Origin: a bacterium
GTDB taxonomy: Bacteria > Electryoneota > RPQS01
Direction of reading: 5' to 3'
NCBI GenBank assembly: GCA_036504735.1
Contig: DASXUQ010000009.1
Coordinates: 167,204-231,203, forward strand
Length of the DNA stretch: 64,000 nt
Part shown: positions 3,393 through 61,512 of the stretch, in pieces
How positions within the stretch are numbered: position 1 is the first letter of the stretch
How the letters are laid out: each line of letters starts with the position of its first letter
The notes under the pieces: generated by a model
Database searches by the model: none
What the model saw: only the letters and a program-made list of their open reading frames with translations
What the model was told of the DNA's origin: nothing
Position numbers and translations under genes: made by a program

Positions 3393-3699
3393 GAATTTTG
3401 GCAGTTTGATCCCGGGGCCGCTTCGCGGAGCGAATGAGCGAGGGTATCTGTTCAGTGGAAGTTCAATCTACAAACGATTTGCGAGATTTCAAAGTTCCTT
3501 TGGGCAGCGAAAAATATTTTTTACCAAACGAACTGCTTAACCTGAAGAAAATGCTGAAATACTGAAACACTGAAAGGCTGAAAAAGGGCCGAAAACCGTG
3601 CTTGGACTGCCTGAATAGGACGATTTTTCGATTGGCCGGGAGTTGCACGGGGAGAGCCTTTGTCACGGACCAAATATACGAAATTTTGAACAAAAAAGC
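3393..3699. other. Intergenic region upstream of tmRNA
   Basis: No gene is supported here. It should contain the tmRNA promoter (minus strand), although I cannot point to a convincing -10/-35 pair. A short word repeat (CTGAAATACTGAAACACTGAAAGG) lies at about 3551-3584 and belongs to a family seen again at 31.7 and 39.8 kb. Confidence 0.6.
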
Positions 3700-7766: not shown

Positions 7767-9464
7767 TCATGGGCGTAAGCCCGGTTCGCCAGCCAGGCCT
7801 CCGCAGAGGAAGCTGATGCTAGTGCCATAGAAATGGAATGAATTCCAGTTATCACCTGACTGGTCACCCGAGGGTACTACAATGTAACTACCTTGGCGCA
7901 TAGCGCAGTCCGGCTGCCCGGCAGTTTCTATGTCGTTGAGTCCGAGTGCATGCCCCATCTCATGGACCCAGTCCCGGTCAACAAATTCGTCTCGATAGGT
8001 TTCCCAACGCGAAAGCGGCATGTAATAGCCATTGTTGCTGTTTGCATAGAAGTCCATCAAAGCATCGATGGCTAATCTGTAGACCACGAGCGAATCCGTG
8101 TTTCCGCAGCCTCGGCCAGGAAGCCAACCTATCCAGCGTCCAGTAACCTTCTCGTCCGGCGGCGGCACAAGACCTTCGGTATTAAGTAAGTAGGCCCGGG
8201 GTATGTATCCCTGATGCCACTTGTGGTAGTTTTCTTGATAAAAATTGTTCGGGTTCGTGAAATTTGGAGGATCACACATCCAGTTGTGGACAAGCAAGTT
8301 TTCCCCCACGCGGTCATTCACATCAATCCAATCGTAAGGGTGGTTTTCTGGCCACTGCGCACCAGGCAAAAGGTTGGAAGCGAGGCTCCAGGTACCCCAA
8401 AAAAGTCCATCATGGTTCAACATATAAGAGATTTGTTGCTGACACGGGTATCCTGACTTGATGTTGAAGTCCCTCGCATCCGTACTCGTACGCACGTGGC
8501 AGTCGGGCGCTGTACAGGCGGTTTGGGTCATGAAGCCCCGGTATTCTTCGAAGGCGGTGAGCCCGTCGCCGTCGTCATCGGTGTTTCTTGTAAAGCGGCT
8601 GTAGTTTGGCGGAATCTGCACACCATCACAGACTTTCCAATCCGCAGTATTCAGGGCACGAAAATCGCCGATGGCACCGAAGTCCTGAATCCGCAGCAAA
8701 AATCGCATGGGATTCTGCGGATCCATGGGGGCTTGCCAATAGTAATGGCTTTGGCCGTCCGCCCCGAAGGTGGGGCCTTGCATGGTGCAGCCGTTGACCC
8801 CCGACACGGGGGCAATATCGCTGACGTCGTCTGTCCGGAGGATATCGGGGAGGAGCGGCGCATTCATCGCCATGCCCTCGTAGGTGGAAGACTTCAGTTC
8901 CACCAGGACTTCCATAGGCATGTTGACGCTGACTTCAAAGCAGAGGTAATCCCCATAGGTAGGCAGCCAATTGGCATTAAACTTATCGGGAGGCACCTGG
9001 TCTTTGCAGGGCCGGACCTTGATGACAGGTTTCTGTTCGGCGCGGCCCCCCATGCTGCCGAATTGTTGTGCGGCGCAGTCCTCGTCCATAGTGACACAGC
9101 AATGAACAATATTCTGGCATTCCCAGTAATCCGTGCCCGTGCCGCCGGACGAACATACCGTCCAGTGGGTTCCCGCCTGCGGCTGGGATGAGCAGTAGAG
9201 GTCTACGCAGTCCAGGAACGGAGCCGAGGTAATCGCGCAAGCGCCGTCGTTACAATTGTCCGCGCATGGCTGTCCCGGATAGGCAGCGCAGGTCCACTTG
9301 TCGCCGTTACTCACGGTGAAGCGGTACTCCTGAGCCCCCGGGACATTCGGGCTGGGAACGCTCCCATGCGGTACAATGTGTGAAGTTGAATAGACGGCCA
9401 GCGGCAAGCCGGTGACGACCAGCAGGCCGATGAGCAGTCTTCGCCAGAAAGAAAAAACACGCAT
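7767..9464 (-). CDS. Secreted metzincin-like zinc metallopeptidase
   Basis: This 565-residue protein has a signal peptide, a Cys-rich N-terminal region (~45-160), an EF-hand/thrombospondin-3-like calcium loop (NTDDDGDGLTAFEEY, ~290) and a C-terminal zinc site HEMGHALGLND at 501-511. That fits HExxHxxGxxH/D of metzincins with Asp as the third ligand (as in snapalysin); the CAM at ~520-522 may be the Met-turn. It probably hydrolyses peptides outside the cell. There is no YPNPF sorting tail, so it leaves the cytoplasm by Sec but its further export is unclear. First gene of the minus-strand operon; a ~145-bp sequence upstream (9591-9735) is shared with the region upstream of the gene ending at 22188. 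Confidence 0.75.
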   Translation of the reverse strand: MRVFSFWRRLLIGLLVVTGLPLAVYSTSHIVPHGSVPSPNVPGAQEYRFTVSNGDKWTCAAYPGQPCADNCNDGACAITSAPFLDCVDLYCSSQPQAGTHWTVCSSGGTGTDYWECQNIVHCCVTMDEDCAAQQFGSMGGRAEQKPVIKVRPCKDQVPPDKFNANWLPTYGDYLCFEVSVNMPMEVLVELKSSTYEGMAMNAPLLPDILRTDDVSDIAPVSGVNGCTMQGPTFGADGQSHYYWQAPMDPQNPMRFLLRIQDFGAIGDFRALNTADWKVCDGVQIPPNYSRFTRNTDDDGDGLTAFEEYRGFMTQTACTAPDCHVRTSTDARDFNIKSGYPCQQQISYMLNHDGLFWGTWSLASNLLPGAQWPENHPYDWIDVNDRVGENLLVHNWMCDPPNFTNPNNFYQENYHKWHQGYIPRAYLLNTEGLVPPPDEKVTGRWIGWLPGRGCGNTDSLVVYRLAIDALMDFYANSNNGYYMPLSRWETYRDEFVDRDWVHEMGHALGLNDIETAGQPDCAMRQGSYIVVPSGDQSGDNWNSFHFYGTSISFLCGGLAGEPGLRP

Positions 9465-26455: not shown

Positions 26456-26610
26456 GAGGCGCAGGGGTAACCCCTGCACCCGGGGCCGGCTTTGCCGGGG
26501 GGACAGCGCGGGGGTACCGCGCGGTCCCTTCCGCATTGATCCCTAGCGGCGGCCTCTGGTCCGGCGGAGCCGAGATCTCGCCTTCAGCGGACCGTCAGCC
26601 CGGAGGGCAG
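26456..26610. repeat. Large GC-rich mosaic repeat
   Basis: Member of a dispersed family: GCAGGGGTAACCCCTGCACC hairpin, a CCGGGGCCGG-CCGGGG block, CAGCGCGG-CCGCGCGGTCCCTTCCG, then TTGATCCCTAGCGGCGGCCT and a GAGATCTCG end. Related copies are at 28247-28355, 54343-54572 (inverted), 38229-38350, 10947-11165, 57133-57180 and 57893-57945. Confidence 0.75.
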
Positions 26611-27957: not shown

Positions 27958-28508
27958 CATCATGTCCTTTACCAATGCTATGGGAGGTCATCAAAGTCAA
28001 GTTTTCGACACGGCGGGGGTCCCGCTGTGGGATGCATAACATACACAAGCCAAAGCGGGAGCACAAGAGAAAGCCCGCCTTTTTCTCGGGATAATTTGCC
28101 GTGGCACGGGCGGTTACGGTATAGTTGGTATAGTTGAAAAGGGTATCCGGATTCGACCGCATCATTTCAAATATGTCAAAAGATGAGAGAAAATTTTCGA
28201 AAGTGTGATCAGGATTGCGGACCCGCCGGTGGCCTTGTGAGACAAGGTTCTGTGCCCCGAGAGGCGCCCACAGCAAGAGGTGACCCCTTGACCCGGGGCC
28301 GCCTACCGGCGGGGGGACAGCGCGGAAGACCGCGCGGTCCCTTCCGGATTCTTGGTTTCGGCCGGGTTGTGTCATCAACGAATGTGAAGGAACGATCCGG
28401 CTCAACCCGGCTCGGCGGTATTTGTGCAGCGGGCGCTTGCATGGCGGCGGGGAAATGGCTATTTTGAGCGGTGGTTTGGAGGCGGATTGTCTATGGGAGA
28501 GAGGGCTG
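27958..28508. other. Intergenic region with mosaic repeat
   Basis: The stretch next to 27957 is the leader and promoter region of the FN3 gene. 28247-28355 is a mosaic-repeat copy (GACCCGGGGCCGCC, GGACAGCGCGGAAGACCGCGCGGTCCCTTCCG). A minus-strand frame of 276 codons crosses this area but has no coding character and overlaps the next gene. Confidence 0.6.
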
Positions 28509-29499: not shown

Positions 29500-30051
29500 A
29501 TGAAGAAAGCTCCCGCTAAGAAGGCCGCCCCGAAGAAGGCCGCTCCCGCAAAGAAGGCTGCTCCGAAGAAAGCCGCCCCGAAGAAGGCCGCTCCCGTGAA
29601 GAAGGCTGCCCCGAAGAAGGCCGCCCCTGTGAAGAAGGCCGCTCCGAAGAAGGTCGCGCCGAAGAAGGCCGCCCCGAAGAAGGTTGCCCCGAAGAAGGTC
29701 GCGCCGAAGAAGGCCGCCCCGAAGAAGGTTGCCGCCCCGAAGAAGGCCGCTGCCCCGAAGAAGGCCGCCCCGAAGGCCGTGAAGCCGAAGGTCAAGCGCG
29801 CGCCGAATCCCGCTTTTATGGCCCCGATGGCCCCCGACGCCATCCTCGGCGCCGTCGTTGGCGACAAGCCGATGCCGCGCACGGAGATCACCAAGAAGTT
29901 GTGGGAGTACATCAAGAAGAACGGCCTGCAGGACAAGGTCAACAAGCGCATGATCAATGCTGACGAGAAGCTGCGCGCGTTGTTCGGCAAGGGCGCCGTC
30001 TCGATGTTCGAAATGAACAAGCTGTTGCAAGGCCACCTGAAGAAGGCGTAA
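29500..30051 (+). CDS. Histone H1-like / SWIB domain DNA-binding protein
   Basis: This 183-residue protein has an N-terminal tail (~1-100) of Lys/Ala/Pro repeats (KKAAPKKAAPKKVAPKKAA type) like bacterial and eukaryotic histone H1 tails, followed by a SWIB/MDM2 domain (~105-180) with ILGAVVGDKPMPRTEITKKLW, YIKKNGLQDKVNKRMI, LFGKGAVSMFEMNKLL. H1-like tails bind DNA non-specifically; SWIB domains in chlamydiae and plants are linked to chromatin condensation. It is probably an abundant nucleoid protein. AAGGAG sits 6 nt before the ATG and a strong promoter and terminator bracket the gene, in line with high expression. The repeat tail is highly biased in codons (AAG, GCC, CCG). Confidence 0.88.
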   Translation: MKKAPAKKAAPKKAAPAKKAAPKKAAPKKAAPVKKAAPKKAAPVKKAAPKKVAPKKAAPKKVAPKKVAPKKAAPKKVAAPKKAAAPKKAAPKAVKPKVKRAPNPAFMAPMAPDAILGAVVGDKPMPRTEITKKLWEYIKKNGLQDKVNKRMINADEKLRALFGKGAVSMFEMNKLLQGHLKKA

Positions 30052-30172: not shown

Positions 30173-31129
30173 TTATTGCAATTCCCATTTGCAGAGGCCG
30201 GCGCGGAGAATACGACCGTTGTGGATGCGGACGGTGAGGGTGTCACTGGTCAGATGGCAGGGGCCGCCGATCATGCGGCCCGAGGCGATGTCATAGGGGA
30301 CCGCGGCACCGGGCATGCTGATGAGAGCGACGGTGTTATCCGGCGAGAGCCAGCAGGCATTGGCCCCGCGCAAACTGAGCAGCACGGCACCCACGGGAAG
30401 CCGGGGGGCAATGCCAAGGTTGACAAAGGAGAGCGCCCCGGAGGCTTCATAGACGGCGGCCACCCGGCAGCTTGCGCCGAGCGCAAAGCCCTGCGGCGAG
30501 AGGGCAAAGCCCTGGAGTCCGATCTGCGCCGCGTCAGATACGGCAACCGTATCACTGCACGGTGCGCCCTGACCGTGGCGCAGGTCATAGAAGGCCAGTT
30601 CGCCAAAGGGGGATACATGCGCGCAGAGGCTGTCGCAAGGCTGGGATTCGATGCCGAAGGCGAGCCGGGTAAAAGGGCCGGTCTGGCGCTGTATCCAGAG
30701 CCGGAATTCCTTGCGGACGGGCTGCGGCAGGCTGTCGGAGACGGCTTCGAGCACAAAGTTCAGCTTGCCGGTGGGAGCCTGGCCCAGCAGGGGAGTCAGA
30801 TGCACGGTGGCACTGGCCGTCGTGTCGAAGCTGGCCGAATCGATGCCGACCTTCAGCCAGCCGGGAGTGTCCGAACCCGGTTGCAGCCGTACGGGAATCC
30901 GGCGGCCAGAGACCCAGAGGATATCCAGCGGGATGTTATAGGTCAAGCCCCATTCGAGAGTATCTGAGGAGACGGATGAGGTGATCACGATGCCACGGGC
31001 AGGCGGCAGCTTGCGTGCATCGGGCTGGGGCACCGCCATCGGCGGCTGCGGCGGTGCAGACGCGCAACCGGACAGAAGCAAATAGGAGATGTGAAATAGG
31101 AAATAGGAAAGAAGACAAGACTTCTTCAT
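30173..31129 (-). CDS. Lipoprotein of unknown function
   Basis: This 318-residue protein starts MKKSCLLSYFLFHISYLLLSGC, a lipoprotein signal peptide with lipobox LSGC (Cys22), followed by a Pro-rich linker. The rest is beta-rich with no catalytic motif; GRRIPVRLQPGSDTPGWLKV and LNFVLEAVSDSLPQPVRKE suggest Ig-like strands, and the C-terminal half could be a small propeller (LSPDNTVALISMPGAAVPYD). It is probably anchored to the outer or inner membrane. The hydrophobic core of the signal peptide is encoded by the TTTCCTATTTC word repeat that is otherwise intergenic. It lies 9 bp after the methyltransferase gene on the same strand, so the two are likely co-transcribed. Confidence 0.75.
   Translation of the reverse strand: MKKSCLLSYFLFHISYLLLSGCASAPPQPPMAVPQPDARKLPPARGIVITSSVSSDTLEWGLTYNIPLDILWVSGRRIPVRLQPGSDTPGWLKVGIDSASFDTTASATVHLTPLLGQAPTGKLNFVLEAVSDSLPQPVRKEFRLWIQRQTGPFTRLAFGIESQPCDSLCAHVSPFGELAFYDLRHGQGAPCSDTVAVSDAAQIGLQGFALSPQGFALGASCRVAAVYEASGALSFVNLGIAPRLPVGAVLLSLRGANACWLSPDNTVALISMPGAAVPYDIASGRMIGGPCHLTSDTLTVRIHNGRILRAGLCKWELQ
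31079..31110. repeat. GAAATAGG word repeat inside a coding region
   Basis: CAAATAGGAGATGTGAAATAGGAAATAGGAAAG-type units overlap the start of the lipoprotein gene. The same words occur at 41024-41111, 48708-48806 and near 54201-54290, always between genes except here. Confidence 0.65.
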
Positions 31130-31138
31130 TTTCAGTTT

Positions 31139-32113
31139 TCAGCTTTCAGCTTTCAGCTTTTCGGAAAGGGCGGCAATGTGCTCGGGAGTGGTGCCACAGC
31201 AGCCACCCAAGATGTTCGCACCAAGGCTTACCATCTGCTCTCCCCAGCGGGCGAATTCTGCGGGGGAAAGCGGGGCGGAAAAGTCCCACGGCTTGCCTTC
31301 CGGTGCTCGGAAGTTGGGATAAGCGCCCAGCAGGATGTCACCCTCGGGCAGCGCGGCGCGCAGGGTTTGGAAGGCCGCCGCAGCCAGATCGGGCGGGCAG
31401 CAGTTGATGAGCACGGCATTGGCTCCCAAGGCAAAGGCGACGCGAGCGGCATCGGTCAGGGAATCGCCATTGTATAGCTCGGTGGCGCTTTTGGGCATAA
31501 AGGATGTCCAGACGGGCAGGCCCATGTTCAGGGCCATTTCCGTGGCAATCTGGGCTTCCCGCGCACTATTCTGGGTCTCGACGAGGATCAGATCGGCCCC
31601 GGCATCGCGCAGCAGCCGCGCGGTGTGCGCATGTTCGCGCAGCAGAATCTCATCGGGCGGGCACAGGTCGGGGCGGTAACAGTCTTCCAAAGGGGCAAGG
31701 GAGGCGGCGACTCCTGGAAAAGGCTGAAACGCTGAAAGGCTGAAACGCTGAAATTCGGAACCCCCTTCTTTTCCCCCTTTTTCAAAGGGGGAAGGATCAG
31801 AGTCTCCCCCCTTAGAATAAGGGGGGAACAAGGGGGGTAGAACTTCCCTTGCCAGCCTGATGGCCAGCCGTGTCAATTCCTCCGCGCGGTCGGCCATGCC
31901 GGCTTTAGCGAGGGTGTAACGGGTGGTGCGGAAGGTGGCGGCGGTGAGGATGTCGGCTCCAGCGGCCAGATAGTGCTTGTGGATGGTCTGGACGAGGTCC
32001 GGGGCTTCGATCAGGGCAAGGGCCGACCACAAAGGCAAACGGGCCACAAAACCGCGCCGTTCCAGTTCGGTGCCGAACGCGCCATCGAGGATAATGGGGT
32101 AGCCGGACGCCAT
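31139..32113 (-). CDS. Homocysteine S-methyltransferase family protein with in-frame repeat insertion
   Basis: This 324-residue enzyme belongs to the zinc-dependent homocysteine methyltransferase family (MmuM/BHMT and the MetH N-domain). The three zinc ligands are Cys238 in INCCPP and Cys305-Cys306 in GGCCGTTPEH. It would transfer a methyl group from a donor such as S-methylmethionine to homocysteine, making methionine. The start ILDGAFGTELERRG is typical. Between residues ~93 and ~134, from PPLFPPYSKGGDSD to SAFQPFPG, a low-complexity insertion replaces what should be a short loop before VAASLAPLEDCYRPD. This is translated repeat DNA (see 31712-31845). The end ALSEKLKAES is also built from a GCTGAAA word repeat. 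It is probably active because the insertion sits in a surface loop. Confidence 0.85.
   Translation of the reverse strand: MASGYPIILDGAFGTELERRGFVARLPLWSALALIEAPDLVQTIHKHYLAAGADILTAATFRTTRYTLAKAGMADRAEELTRLAIRLAREVLPPLFPPYSKGGDSDPSPFEKGGKEGGSEFQRFSLSAFQPFPGVAASLAPLEDCYRPDLCPPDEILLREHAHTARLLRDAGADLILVETQNSAREAQIATEMALNMGLPVWTSFMPKSATELYNGDSLTDAARVAFALGANAVLINCCPPDLAAAAFQTLRAALPEGDILLGAYPNFRAPEGKPWDFSAPLSPAEFARWGEQMVSLGANILGGCCGTTPEHIAALSEKLKAES
31712..31845. repeat. Composite palindromic/word repeat inserted in the methyltransferase gene
   Basis: Two repeat types are joined. 31717-31753 is a GCTGAAACG word repeat. 31757-31843 has two hairpins, TTCCCCCTTTTTCAAAGGGGGAA and CCCCCCTTAGAATAAGGGGGG. 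An intergenic relative of the second part lies inverted at 41585-41665. The insertion keeps the reading frame. Confidence 0.85.
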
Positions 32114-32404
32114 CAGGCCTCCGCACCGTGAAGGCTATGCAAAAGATACATTATCTTACCCACCTATCCACAAGACAAGCTCTTGTTTATTGAAGGCCAA
32201 ATTTGTCGCACGGGCTTTGCAGCGACGCTTTAAGGATACCGGAAGTTCTGACCTAAGCTGTGGGCTGCATTGCCTTTGGAACGGCGAATCCGTATCTTAA
32301 CTGTTTGGGTAGAAGGCAGTTTAGCGATATTCGCGGACAAAGGCAACCCCCATCCTGACCTTCCCCCACGAAAGTAAGGGAAGGGACCAACCTCGGAGGA
32401 CGCT
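32114..32404. other. Intergenic region before the disrupted secreted-protein gene
   Basis: Divergent spacer between the methyltransferase (minus) and the leader at 32405 (plus). It contains a hairpin-like CCTTCCCCCACGAAAGTAAGGGAAGG (about 32359-32384). Promoters for both directions should lie here but none is clear. An excellent RBS (GGAGG, 32395-32399) belongs to the leader ORF. Confidence 0.45.
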
Positions 32405-38444: not shown

Positions 38445-39779
38445 ATGCGAGTTGGGATATTGGTTTTGCTGCTGGCGGGGATGACGGTTTCGGGGTGGGC
38501 ACATAACAGTTATACGGGATATTCGAGCGCGCCGGGCAGCCGGGGGACGTGCGCGTCCCAGTGTCACGGTTCTACGGGCGGCACGATTACGATCACGGGG
38601 TTTCCCACAACGTATACTCCGGGGCAATCCTACAGTCTGACCATCGGCCACAGCGCGGGAAGTACGATCAGCAACTTCAATGCGTCGTGCCGCGCGGGCA
38701 TGGGCAGCGCCAATGCGGGCAGCTTGACGGCGGGGACAGGCACCTCGACATACAACGCGACGGGGGAATCCAACGGCGTGAAGCTGTCGAGCAATAATCA
38801 GAATTCCGGCAGCTTCAACTGGACGGCTCCGGCGGCGGGGACGGGGACGGTGCGGCTGTATGTGGCGGGTTTGCAGGGCGGTTACAGCGGGCAAAATACG
38901 CGACTGATCCTGGTGTCCAATGAAGCGGCGGCAGCGCCGGGCGCGGCCAGCAATCCGGTTCCGTCGAACGGTGAAGAGGGTGTGACTCCCGGCGACTCGC
39001 TGTGGTGGACGGCGGGGGCAGGAACCACACTGCATGTGCTTTACTTTGGCGTAAGCAACCCGCCGGATTCGGTGGGGGCGTATGCCCTGCCGGTCTATTA
39101 CAGCACGAACACGCTGCCGGGGACGACCTATTACTGGCGGGTGGATGAGCAGAATGCCGCGGGAATTACTCCCGGAGAGCTTTGGCACTTTACGACGCTG
39201 GCCTTGCCGGATACGGCGAGCCATCCTTTTCCGGCCAATTGCGATACGGCGATTGCGGTGCGGGTGACACTTTCCTGGCTGGCTGATGGCACGGTGTGGG
39301 GGCACAATGTTTATCTGGGCACCACCAACCCGCCGCCGCTGGTCTCTACCGAGCAGTCGGGCAATTCTTATCCGCCGCCGCAGAATCTTGAAGAAGGAAC
39401 TCTTTACTACTGGCGGGTCGACGAGATCAACAACGCAGGGACGACCGAAGGGCCGGTGTGGAGCTTCCGCACGGAGAGTCCCAATGCGGTGGGTGATCCG
39501 AAAGCGTTGATACCGACGGAGCTGGCCTTGGGTCCGGTCTATCCCAATCCGTTCAATGCCACGGTGACGATTCCCTTTGCCCTGCCGCAGGCCGCCAAAG
39601 TCAGTGTGGCCCTGTATGATGTCACCGGACGGTTGGTGGCGGTGATGGCGAACGGCACGTATGGCGCAGGGGTTCATTCGGTACAGTTTTCTTCGGAAGG
39701 GGTAGCCAGCGGGGTGTATCTGGTGAAGCTCGCGGCGAATGGCCATATGCTGACCACCAAGGTGGTGGCGCTGAAGTAA
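38445..39779 (+). CDS. Secreted choice-of-anchor V / FN3 protein with T9SS tail
   Basis: This 444-residue protein has a signal peptide (MRVGILVLLLAGMTVSGWA), then a Reelin-like choice-of-anchor V domain (~20-165) opening with CASQCHGS, a C-x3-CH arrangement usual for this domain, and ending RLILVSNE. Two FN3-like repeats follow (~175-340; YYWRVDEQNAAG and YYWRVDEINNAG) and a sorting tail has VYPNPFNATV. The role is probably in adhesion or extracellular binding; CxxxCH could hold heme, but this is not shown. ATG 38445 lies behind GGAAGGA and starts the signal peptide; TTG at 38430 is less likely. Followed by a long inverted repeat that can act as terminator. Confidence 0.82.
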   Translation: MRVGILVLLLAGMTVSGWAHNSYTGYSSAPGSRGTCASQCHGSTGGTITITGFPTTYTPGQSYSLTIGHSAGSTISNFNASCRAGMGSANAGSLTAGTGTSTYNATGESNGVKLSSNNQNSGSFNWTAPAAGTGTVRLYVAGLQGGYSGQNTRLILVSNEAAAAPGAASNPVPSNGEEGVTPGDSLWWTAGAGTTLHVLYFGVSNPPDSVGAYALPVYYSTNTLPGTTYYWRVDEQNAAGITPGELWHFTTLALPDTASHPFPANCDTAIAVRVTLSWLADGTVWGHNVYLGTTNPPPLVSTEQSGNSYPPPQNLEEGTLYYWRVDEINNAGTTEGPVWSFRTESPNAVGDPKALIPTELALGPVYPNPFNATVTIPFALPQAAKVSVALYDVTGRLVAVMANGTYGAGVHSVQFSSEGVASGVYLVKLAANGHMLTTKVVALK

Positions 39780-39780
39780 A

Positions 39781-39852
39781 ATGCTGAAAATCTGAAACGC
39801 TGAAACGCTGAAAGGTCAAGCTGATGAAATTCAGACCTTTCAGCGTTTTCTT
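39781..39852 (+). terminator. Long inverted word-repeat terminator
   Basis: TGAAACGCTGAAAGGTC (ending 39817) pairs with GACCTTTCAGCG (39834 onward) and TTTTCTTTGG follows. The left arm is a tandem of the GCTGAAACG word that recurs at 3551-3584 and inside the methyltransferase gene. Confidence 0.7.
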
Positions 39853-40373: not shown

Positions 40374-41027
40374 ATGCTTGAGCCAAAGGAACGCGCCCGC
40401 GCAGAAAAGATCCTGAAGATTCTGCACCAGACGTATCCCGATGTTACCACGGCTTTGATTCACACGAATGTATTCGAGCTGTCGGTGGCGGCGATTCTCT
40501 CCGCCCAGCAGACGGATGCAGGCGTAAATGCAGTGAGCGGGGAGCTTTTCGAGCGCTACCAGAATCCGCAGGCGCTGGCCGAAGCGAACCTCGATGAACT
40601 CGACGGGATGATCGGGACTATCAGCTTCCACCATGCCAAGGCGCGGTACCTGATCGGTTTCGGGCAAGGATTGGTGGAGAAGTTCGGTGGCAAGGTGCCG
40701 AAGACGGTGGAAGAGCTGACCTCGCTTCCGGGCATCGGGCGGAAAATTGCGCAGGTGATTTTGGGGACGGGCTACGGCCTGGCCACCGGAATTGTGGTGG
40801 ACACGCATGTGATCCGCATCTCTTACCGGCTGGGTCTGACCGAGAATAAGCAGCCGCTCAAGATCGAGAAAGACCTGCTGCCGCAGATTCCGCAGCAGGA
40901 TTGGATCTGGTTTACCCATGCCATCATCTGGCATGGCAGGGCCATTTGCACCGCGCGGCTTCCACAGTGTTCGATCTGTCCGCTGAATGAAGTCTGCCCA
41001 AAGAAGGGCGTCACACAAAGAAAATAG
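40374..41027 (+). CDS. Endonuclease III-like DNA glycosylase (first paralogue)
   Basis: This 217-residue base-excision-repair enzyme has a helix-hairpin-helix LPGIGRKIAQVIL with the Schiff-base lysine Lys124, the catalytic aspartate Asp143 in VVDTHVIR, and a C-terminal [4Fe-4S] loop with Cys192-x6-Cys199-x2-Cys202-x5-Cys208. It would excise oxidised pyrimidines and cut the strand by beta-lyase action. ILSAQQTDAGVN matches the ILSAQxTD signature. It is co-transcribed with the hypothetical gene before it. A second paralogue lies 680 bp downstream; this copy is the more divergent (Gln, Gly and Ile where the second has Cys, Arg and Thr), so it may have a different lesion range. Confidence 0.92.
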   Translation: MLEPKERARAEKILKILHQTYPDVTTALIHTNVFELSVAAILSAQQTDAGVNAVSGELFERYQNPQALAEANLDELDGMIGTISFHHAKARYLIGFGQGLVEKFGGKVPKTVEELTSLPGIGRKIAQVILGTGYGLATGIVVDTHVIRISYRLGLTENKQPLKIEKDLLPQIPQQDWIWFTHAIIWHGRAICTARLPQCSICPLNEVCPKKGVTQRK

Positions 41028-41111
41028 GAAATAGGAAACTTGAAATAGGAGAGAAGAGGTCTCTTCGCTTCCGTATTCTGTTTTCCTTTCCTATTTCACA
41101 TGTTCTATTTC
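41024..41111. repeat. Long imperfect inverted repeat of GAAATAGG words
   Basis: Left arm: GAAATAGGAAACTTGAAATAG-type words; centre GAAGAGGTCTCTTC; right arm TTTTCCTTTCCTATTTCACATG. It overlaps the end of the nth-like gene by 4 bp and fills the gap to the membrane protein. Confidence 0.7.
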
Positions 41112-41584: not shown

Positions 41585-41665
41585 ACCCCCTTAGTCTCCC
41601 CTTATGCTAAGGGGGAGACTCTAATCCTTCCCCCTTTGAAAAAGGGGGAATAAGAAGGGGGTTCT
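41585..41665. repeat. Double-hairpin palindromic repeat, intergenic copy
   Basis: GTCTCCCCTTATGCTAAGGGGGAGAC and CTTCCCCCTTTGAAAAAGGGGGAA are two adjacent hairpins. Inverted, the unit aligns over about 80 bp with 31757-31843, which is translated inside the methyltransferase gene. Confidence 0.85.
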
Positions 41666-48707: not shown

Positions 48708-48806
48708 AAAATAGGAAATAGAAAATTTGAAATAGGAAAGCAGATCCGCTTTCAGATTTCGGTTTTCAGTTTGGTTTTCTATTTCCTATTTCAGATTTCA
48801 GATTTC
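48708..48806. repeat. Long imperfect inverted repeat of GAAATAGG words
   Basis: Left arm words AAAATAGGAAATAG and TTGAAATAGGAAAGC, centre AGATCCGCTTT, right arm TTTCTATTTCCTATTTCAG and a TTTCAGATTTC run. It fills the gap between the TPR gene and the sugar transferase gene. Confidence 0.7.
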
Positions 48807-54191: not shown

Positions 54192-54560
54192 GGAAATCAG
54201 AGCATAGGAGGTTTGAAACAGGAAAGAAGAGGTTCTTCTGGACATCTCTTCGGCAAGACCGCACGAAGGGTCCCGCTTCTATTTCCTATCGCTTTGCGCC
54301 GATTTAGTTCCCCTGTTGCTGCCGCTTAGTCGTCCGGCGGGGTAGACGGGCACGACATGTCCGGCGAAACCGTGATCTCGCTCTGCGGATCGTGCTTCTA
54401 CGGCCGATTGCGTGCCTGAACCGAGGGTCATGCTGCCCTTTGGGCTGACGGCCAGAGGCCGCCGCTAGGGATCAATTCGGAAGGGACCGCGCGGTCTTCC
54501 GCGCTGTCCCCCCGCCGGTAGGCGGCCTTGGGATCCAACGCCCCGCGTTGGGTGCAGGGG
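54192..54560. repeat. Large mosaic repeat (inverted) between protease and gyrA
   Basis: The core 54343-54572 is the longest member of the mosaic family, in inverse orientation: GGCACGACATGTCCGGCGAAA-like block, TGATCTCGCTCTGCGGATCG, GCCGCCGCTAGGGATCAAT, CGGAAGGGACCGCGCGG and GTGCAGGGGTTACCCCTGC. The last hairpin overlaps the very 3' end of gyrA. The part next to 54191 contains GAAACAGGAAAG words. Confidence 0.75.
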
Positions 54561-57059
<2,499 letters not shown>

Positions 57060-57223
57060 TGCGTTTCTTTATTGGTGAAAAACAAAAATCGAAAAATCAA
57101 ATCCCCCGGCGGCCTATGCCACCTCAATCGTCGTATCAATCGCCCCTAGCGGCGGCCTCCGGCCGTCAGGACGAAGTCCGGCACAAAGTCCCGATTCCGG
57201 TTAGGCGAATGCGCGGTTCCATG
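57060..57223. repeat. AT-word and mosaic repeat between gyrA and hepT
   Basis: GAAAAACAAAAATCGAAAAATC (57077-57098) belongs to the AAAAATCG word family also seen at 59050-59150, 59887-59970 and 62039-62083. 57137-57175 has CCCCTAGCGGCGGCCTCCGGCCG from the mosaic family. Confidence 0.55.
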
Positions 57224-59458: not shown

Positions 59459-59523
59459 AAAGGATCCTGCGTTTCCCGGTAATTAAGCCCATGTTTCGCA
59501 TGGACACGGCAAGCCATGTCCCT

Positions 59524-59562
59524 ACTTCATCCTTCATCCTTCCGCCGTCATCCTTTCTTCCG
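59524..59562. repeat. TTCATCC word repeat
   Basis: CTTCATCCTTCATCCTTCCGCC occurs here and at 61483-61508 (TTTCATCCTTCATCCTTCCG), each time just after the stop of a minus-strand gene. Confidence 0.6.
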
Positions 59563-61395: not shown

Positions 61396-61512
61396 AAGCC
61401 TCGCCTGAAAGAAAAACAAAAAGCAGAGAGCAGAAAACAGAAACGACGATCATGCGCTTCTGGCCTATTCTCCTCTTTCATCCTTCATCCTTCCGCCTTC
61501 ATCCTTTTGAGG

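Follow-up and report, generated by a model that had tools for sequence, protein, structure and literature searches.

The palindromic elements of Rickettsia (RPEs) are repeats of about 150 bp that lie both between genes and, in frame, within unrelated metabolic and housekeeping genes (PMC10969869); according to the same source, nearly half of the copies of the first report lie in coding DNA. In-frame copies also occur among the QMITEs of Coxiella (PMC5896051), and in Thiomargarita a MITE has been suggested to be linked to a PD-(D/E)XK_2 gene (PMC4853749). Ever since the Rickettsia reports, it has been a question by what route palindromic elements that code for protein move and come to lie in frame within genes. 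Here we describe a case from a window of 64,000 nucleotides (the whole stretch of DNA analysed), which adds one more genome whose conserved genes contain in-frame copies, together with a concrete, testable candidate for the mobiliser: DUF559, a common domain that is still of 'unknown function' in Pfam.

An in-frame insert in a homocysteine methyltransferase gene

The product of the insert-bearing gene (Table 1) matches the Pfam family S-methyl_trans (PF02574) with E=3.5e-59. The preliminary description of this DNA had proposed that a palindromic repeat is translated in frame inside it, and the alignment with relatives bears this out: the insert comprises 43 residues where 11 aligned relatives have a variable linker of 5-13 residues that joins a helix (LAREx) to the strand VAxSxAPLEDCY. 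None of the 11 orthologues contains the segment, so that the refuting observation named in the preliminary description did not turn up. The segment is a genuine insertion: a dispersed palindromic repeat, in frame and specific to this lineage.

Table 1. Features of the insert-bearing gene and of the palindromic element, in window coordinates.
Feature	Position	Strand	Basis
Homocysteine S-methyltransferase gene, insert-bearing, 324 aa	31139-32113	-	ORF list; Pfam PF02574; orthologue alignment
In-frame insert, residues 92-134, LPPLFPPYSKGGDSDPSPFEKGGKEGGSEFQRFSLSAFQPFPG	31712-31840	-	alignment with orthologues (5-13 residues there)
Palindromic element (A + C modules), genome-scan query	31750-31842	-	genome scan; copy comparison
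A-module outer arm CCCCCCTTGT	31828-31837	-	sequence; 48-site consensus
A-module hairpin TCCCCCCTTATTCTAAGGGGGGA	31805-31827	-	sequence; 48-site consensus
C-module hairpin TTCCCCCTTTGAAAAAGGGGGAA	31771-31793	-	sequence; 48-site consensus
C-module outer arm AAGAAGGGGG	31761-31770	-	sequence; 48-site consensus
GCTGAAA(C/G) word array, translated as the 3' part of the insert	31719-31753	-	repeat family D2
Intergenic element copy, inverse orientation, 91% identical	41585-41664	+	repeat search, copy comparison

The insert DNA had also been read as a composite of two dispersed repeats, and this holds: one is the palindromic element and the other an array of CTGAAA words. The element proper (31760-31838, about 80 bp) is built in the order outer arm, hairpin, hairpin, outer arm, and the inverse intergenic copy that had been reported for it was recovered (Table 1). 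The two hairpins of the proposed double-hairpin unit are present in the element; as a refinement, the RNA folds best into one long hairpin (-53.9 kcal/mol, z=-2.55), because the two are similar enough to cross-pair. The word array recurs in the window, as had been noted, at 3541-3597 and 39771-39835. CTGAAA words stand beside 5 of 48 element sites, compared with 0.7% of random places (p=3e-5).

Outside the insert, the protein looks like its relatives. It retains 72 of the 73 columns that are invariant in eight of them, its identity to them is usual for the group, and C238, C305 and C306, at the Cys ligand positions, are present in an open frame, in keeping with the earlier statement that zinc ligands and frame are kept. 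The pairwise dN/dS against the orthologue of G006 is about 0.21, a value that reflects mostly the time before the insertion. Two further homocysteine methyltransferase matches lie in the same genome (G000:C5:588330 and C5:865959). Helix-to-strand loops of TIM barrels lie on the face opposite to the active site, which fits the tolerance of an insert at this position; by this analogy, the inserted peptide is probably a surface loop on that face, so that the enzyme is probably still active. A single-sequence AlphaFold model (mean pLDDT 42.6) was set aside. In the alignment with relatives, a C-terminal intein border of the HN-C type is absent at the insert.

Several other features of the window were recorded. 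The 3' end of the methyltransferase gene (31132-31165, SEKLKAES and the stop) is itself made of CTGAAA/TTTCAG words, so the array may have given the gene a new stop. Three kinds of short intergenic word array (CTGAAACG, AAATAGG and CATCCTT) resemble short direct-repeat families; they occupy the two array positions given above (3541-3597 and 39771-39835) as well as 31079-31115, 41021-41057, 48708-48744, 59521-59556 and 61472-61507. A separate REP-like palindrome family, CTAGCGGCGGCCTCTGGCCG, is found at 26516-26559, 28292-28350, 54431-54532 and 57144-57183, and also flanks a Y1 transposase at G000:C8:155245. An ORF at 29500-30051 carries long AAPKKAAPKK repeats, and its C-terminal part resembles a SWIB domain. 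An Rfam scan of the whole window matched a tmRNA and nothing else.

Distribution of the element across the host genome

The element query gave 57 matches in the host genome (E down to 1e-29 for copies elsewhere), which merge into about 48 sites in the 480 kb of DNA around the matches. Most copies are intergenic, and the best of the others is 96% identical. Comparison of the copies shows that the element is modular, A-(B)n-C, where A comprises outer arm and hairpin, C comprises hairpin and outer arm, and zero or more middle units B stand between them. No constant target-site duplication was recognised at the 48 sites when inspected by eye.

Besides the methyltransferase, two genes carry confirmed in-frame copies, giving 3 among about 48 sites. 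MnmE (G000:C9:276419-278017) has an insert of about 75 aa, checked against relatives, that consists of A, B, a further module and C, while in a DUF4175 protein the insert, GSPPFEKGGTKGGGGEGL, is 18 aa long and absent in seven relatives. The flanks of both are intact, and all three inserts share the peptide frame FEKGG. Copies are also spanned by ORFs for a TonB receptor, a cytochrome, a hydrolase and a PPIase; these were left out of the count because the copy lies near the N-terminus, where the true start is ambiguous. In the last of them, a PPIase-like lipoprotein (L070:3129-4193), the N-terminus reads through an element and the signal peptide is apparently encoded by TTTCTGC words.

We considered whether the element has a specially open reading frame and rejected this, as open frames are about as common in it as expected by chance. 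The in-frame copies are therefore likely survivors of selection. Short in-frame palindrome-like remnants were also seen in the mnmE genes of three other genomes (G002, L091; G008, L092; G001, L096), all in the same loop, which suggests that this loop is a repeated landing site. The modularity, the MnmE and DUF4175 cases and the nuclease discussed below all go beyond the preliminary description.

DUF559 nucleases and their flanking palindromes

We searched 15 genomes for DUF559 (PF04480, an EDxHD/Vsr-like nuclease), and nearly all copies sit directly between element-like palindromes, as judged by eye. In the host genome, one DUF559 gene (G000:C17:255498-255815) has a full copy of the element directly on either side (L069:8320-8439 and 8849-8967), 84-86% identical to the methyltransferase insert. 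Around another (G000:C8:151317-151634), the palindromes belong to a second family, of which the genome has more copies; a decayed copy of this second family lies in the window at 32343-32385, upstream of an ORF for a KAP-like NTPase. In MnmE of G006 and G009, a much larger in-frame insert near the site used in the host consists of an entire DUF559 domain framed by matching hairpins. A strict automatic test of 18 related loci, which asked for a C5/G5-run hairpin no farther than 180 nt away on each side, found both-side hairpins at 10, compared with 0.2% of control blocks; at L124 and L127, a clear palindrome pair was not seen. Residues of catalytic type are conserved in the domain: E14, Q33, D42, E53, D55, H59 and D68 do not vary among 19 sequences. 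A profile of the domain picks out the structure of a homing endonuclease, 3r3p ('Mobile intron protein'), at E=1.4e-4.

The repeats differ between genomes. The methyltransferase element has no match in G001, G004, G005 or G007. A probe made from the flank of the G001 nuclease detects 40 copies in G001, by far the strongest scores being there, and a probe made from the mnmE-DUF559 hairpin detects 81 copies in G006, 67 in G009 and none in the host genome. In G002, no DUF559 was detected though repeats are present, and hence repeats can persist or spread without a resident nuclease.

To look beyond these relatives, we scanned GTDB genomes with four of the closer DUF559 sequences, as a wider first alignment was too diverse. 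The scan yielded 80 loci from many phyla, a biased sample since they were selected by two peptide motifs. Hairpins within 250 nt were found upstream at 53 loci, downstream at 51 and on both sides at 44, against 14.6% of background windows; at that strictness, about half of the loci fail the both-sides test. Measured from ORF borders, with other ORFs of the same loci as controls, both-side hairpins flank 22 of 59 DUF559 ORFs and 4 of 114 control ORFs (p=1e-8), and a repeat common to the 5' and 3' flanks occurs at 26/59 and 3/114, respectively (p=1e-11); the hairpin criteria are simple, and most of the genomes are draft assemblies. Between unrelated loci, once those at the same genomic site had been removed, similar flank pairs at 0-220 nt numbered 52 upstream and 72 downstream, with none at 700-920 nt. 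A first correlation of flank similarity with nuclease similarity was discarded as confounded, since loci at the same genomic site were included and far flanks correlated too. After removal of these loci, the Pearson coefficients were 0.26 and 0.29 (permutation p=0.002) for near flanks, and 0.05 and -0.03 for far flanks. That near flanks track the nuclease implies that nuclease and palindromes travel together as a unit. The association is a statistical one, and these data show the coupling of palindromes and DUF559 to be tight and lineage-specific.

The nuclease also occurs inside host proteins. DUF559 and palindromes lie in frame inside mnmE, ileS, uvrA, uvrC, metH and ribD; with palindrome-coded peptides on one or both sides, the domain splits IleS (Saprospiraceae), UvrA (Emticicia), UvrC (Ignavibacteria), MetH (Bacteroidetes), RibD and a DegT aminotransferase. 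It is joined to a Mur ligase in Armatimonadetes, and fused N-terminally to HisF, CbiC and guanylate kinase. Purifying selection acts on the embedded nuclease in the three genes examined: pN/pS is 0.22/0.76 in mnmE and 0.08-0.17/0.78-0.94 in uvrC, and dN/dS is about 0.08 in hisF. A nuclease domain is thus kept under selection inside essential enzymes. Inteins carry it as well (L125, L146, L148, L150 and L152), with splice motifs present at the borders in L125 and L146; L125 (G003:C434) is from a relative of the host. Two earlier papers mention DUF559 in a Thermosynechococcus intein (PMC9403480) and in a Vsr-like repair context (PMC12907096). Its link to palindromes is absent from the titles and abstracts of open-access papers mentioning DUF559, a set that takes in few preprints.

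Origin of the insert and comparison with known systems

We propose, with a probability of about 0.68, that the insert derives from a class of elements mobilised by DUF559, as a MITE-like form that lacks the nuclease, and that it is tolerated because it is in frame and in a variable linker. Elements of this class would have the build arm-hairpin-(cargo)-hairpin-arm, and the flanking repeats make a DUF559 (EDxHD/Vsr-like) nuclease their well-supported candidate mobiliser. The nuclease gene would lie inside or between the palindromes, and the methyltransferase copy, without it, would be a non-autonomous form; such copies are probably moved in trans. DUF559 may cut at or near the palindromes or the target, and repair would then copy the element into the break. 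That a dispersed palindromic element landed in frame in the methyltransferase gene, as in at least two other conserved genes of the genome, is shown by the sequences; it would have survived there because the reading frame was kept and a variable helix-to-strand linker was hit.

The competing explanations concern what moves the repeats and what the insert means for its gene. DUF559 could be a passenger that lands in or beside palindromes spread by other means, with hairpins or cruciforms as its preferred target. A passenger role would suit the loci where the nuclease sits between two complete palindromes rather than inside one (C17, L199), and the repeats of G002; we nevertheless think it unlikely, since each nuclease lineage has flanks of its own that move along with it, and every repeat family tested is amplified in the genomes that have the matching DUF559. 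The palindromes might instead be REP-like and moved by Y1 (RAYT-type) transposases of the genome, whose seven Y1_Tnp matches all lie on element-rich contigs. However, none of the four of these genes inspected has an element within 400 nt and several are flanked by other repeat families, such as CTAGCGGCGGCCTCTGGCCG, whereas DUF559 is directly flanked by the element; this origin therefore seems highly unlikely. From what the sequences tell, DUF559 is the likely engine that spreads the palindromic repeats, sometimes into essential genes.

As for the gene, the insertion may be neutral debris in a dead copy, open by chance. The other methyltransferase matches could make this copy dispensable, and the chance-level frequency of open frames would agree. 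The retained invariant columns, Cys ligand positions and normal identity speak against it, as do the intact flanks of the in-frame inserts in MnmE and DUF4175, and we consider it improbable. Removal or skipping of the insert, by splicing or ribosomal bypassing, might be suspected from the strong mRNA hairpin and from the inteins with DUF559 known here (L125, L146-L152). But the methyltransferase, MnmE and DUF4175 inserts are in frame and stop-free, which bypassing would not require, and lack intein splice motifs, leaving very little room for this explanation. An old protein loop would fit a site that is a variable linker among relatives, yet the segment is in no relative and some 48 further sites carry matching DNA, one of them 96% identical; within the genomes searched, that reading is refuted.

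A mobiliser role for DUF559 would, if true, explain many GC-run palindromes and the odd peptides of the 'PPLxPPxxKGG' type that are translated from them. On a broader view, DUF559 and arm-hairpin-hairpin-arm palindromes might form a widespread, undescribed class of mobile element, which spreads by cutting and repair, gives rise to genome-specific nuclease-less families and enters essential genes in frame without splicing, its nuclease being kept active as an extra domain in proteins that include MnmE, UvrC, IleS, UvrA and MetH; we hold the odds of this to be about even.

The resemblance to RPEs drawn in the preliminary description is apt for behaviour, on which the comparison rests: both are short palindromic repeats that occupy intergenic DNA and also stand in frame within metabolic or housekeeping genes, here those for the methyltransferase, MnmE and the DUF4175 protein. 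The present element differs in its length of about 80 bp, its A-(B)n-C modules, its GC-run hairpins and its linked candidate mobiliser, the last of which makes it more than a counterpart of RPEs. With 3 in-frame copies among about 48 sites, its coding share is also much lower than theirs. BOX elements of pneumococcus are modular, with a variable number of middle units, and we know of no nuclease for them; the element here shares this modularity, a likeness of build. With the REP/RAYT system (PMC2817692, PMC3733652) it shares dispersed extragenic palindromes and a dedicated single-domain enzyme in the same genome, but the type of enzyme and the arm-hairpin-hairpin-arm build are different, and the inspected RAYT-type genes have no element alongside. 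It is like a MITE in being short, with many dispersed copies, inverted ends, no gene of its own and occasional in-frame fusions, and its ends are common to the presumably autonomous DUF559 unit at C17. The proposed parent, however, is a DUF559/EDxHD nuclease rather than a DDE/HUH transposase or PD-(D/E)XK_2; as a precedent for a nuclease from this superfamily, the Thiomargarita MITE comes closest. Finally, DUF559 is profile-related to the EDxHD homing endonucleases (I-Bth0305I, PDB 3r3p; PMC3943268) and serves as an intein nuclease (L125, L146, L148), but here it is accompanied by palindromes, both at numerous unrelated sites and inside host genes that have neither intein nor intron.
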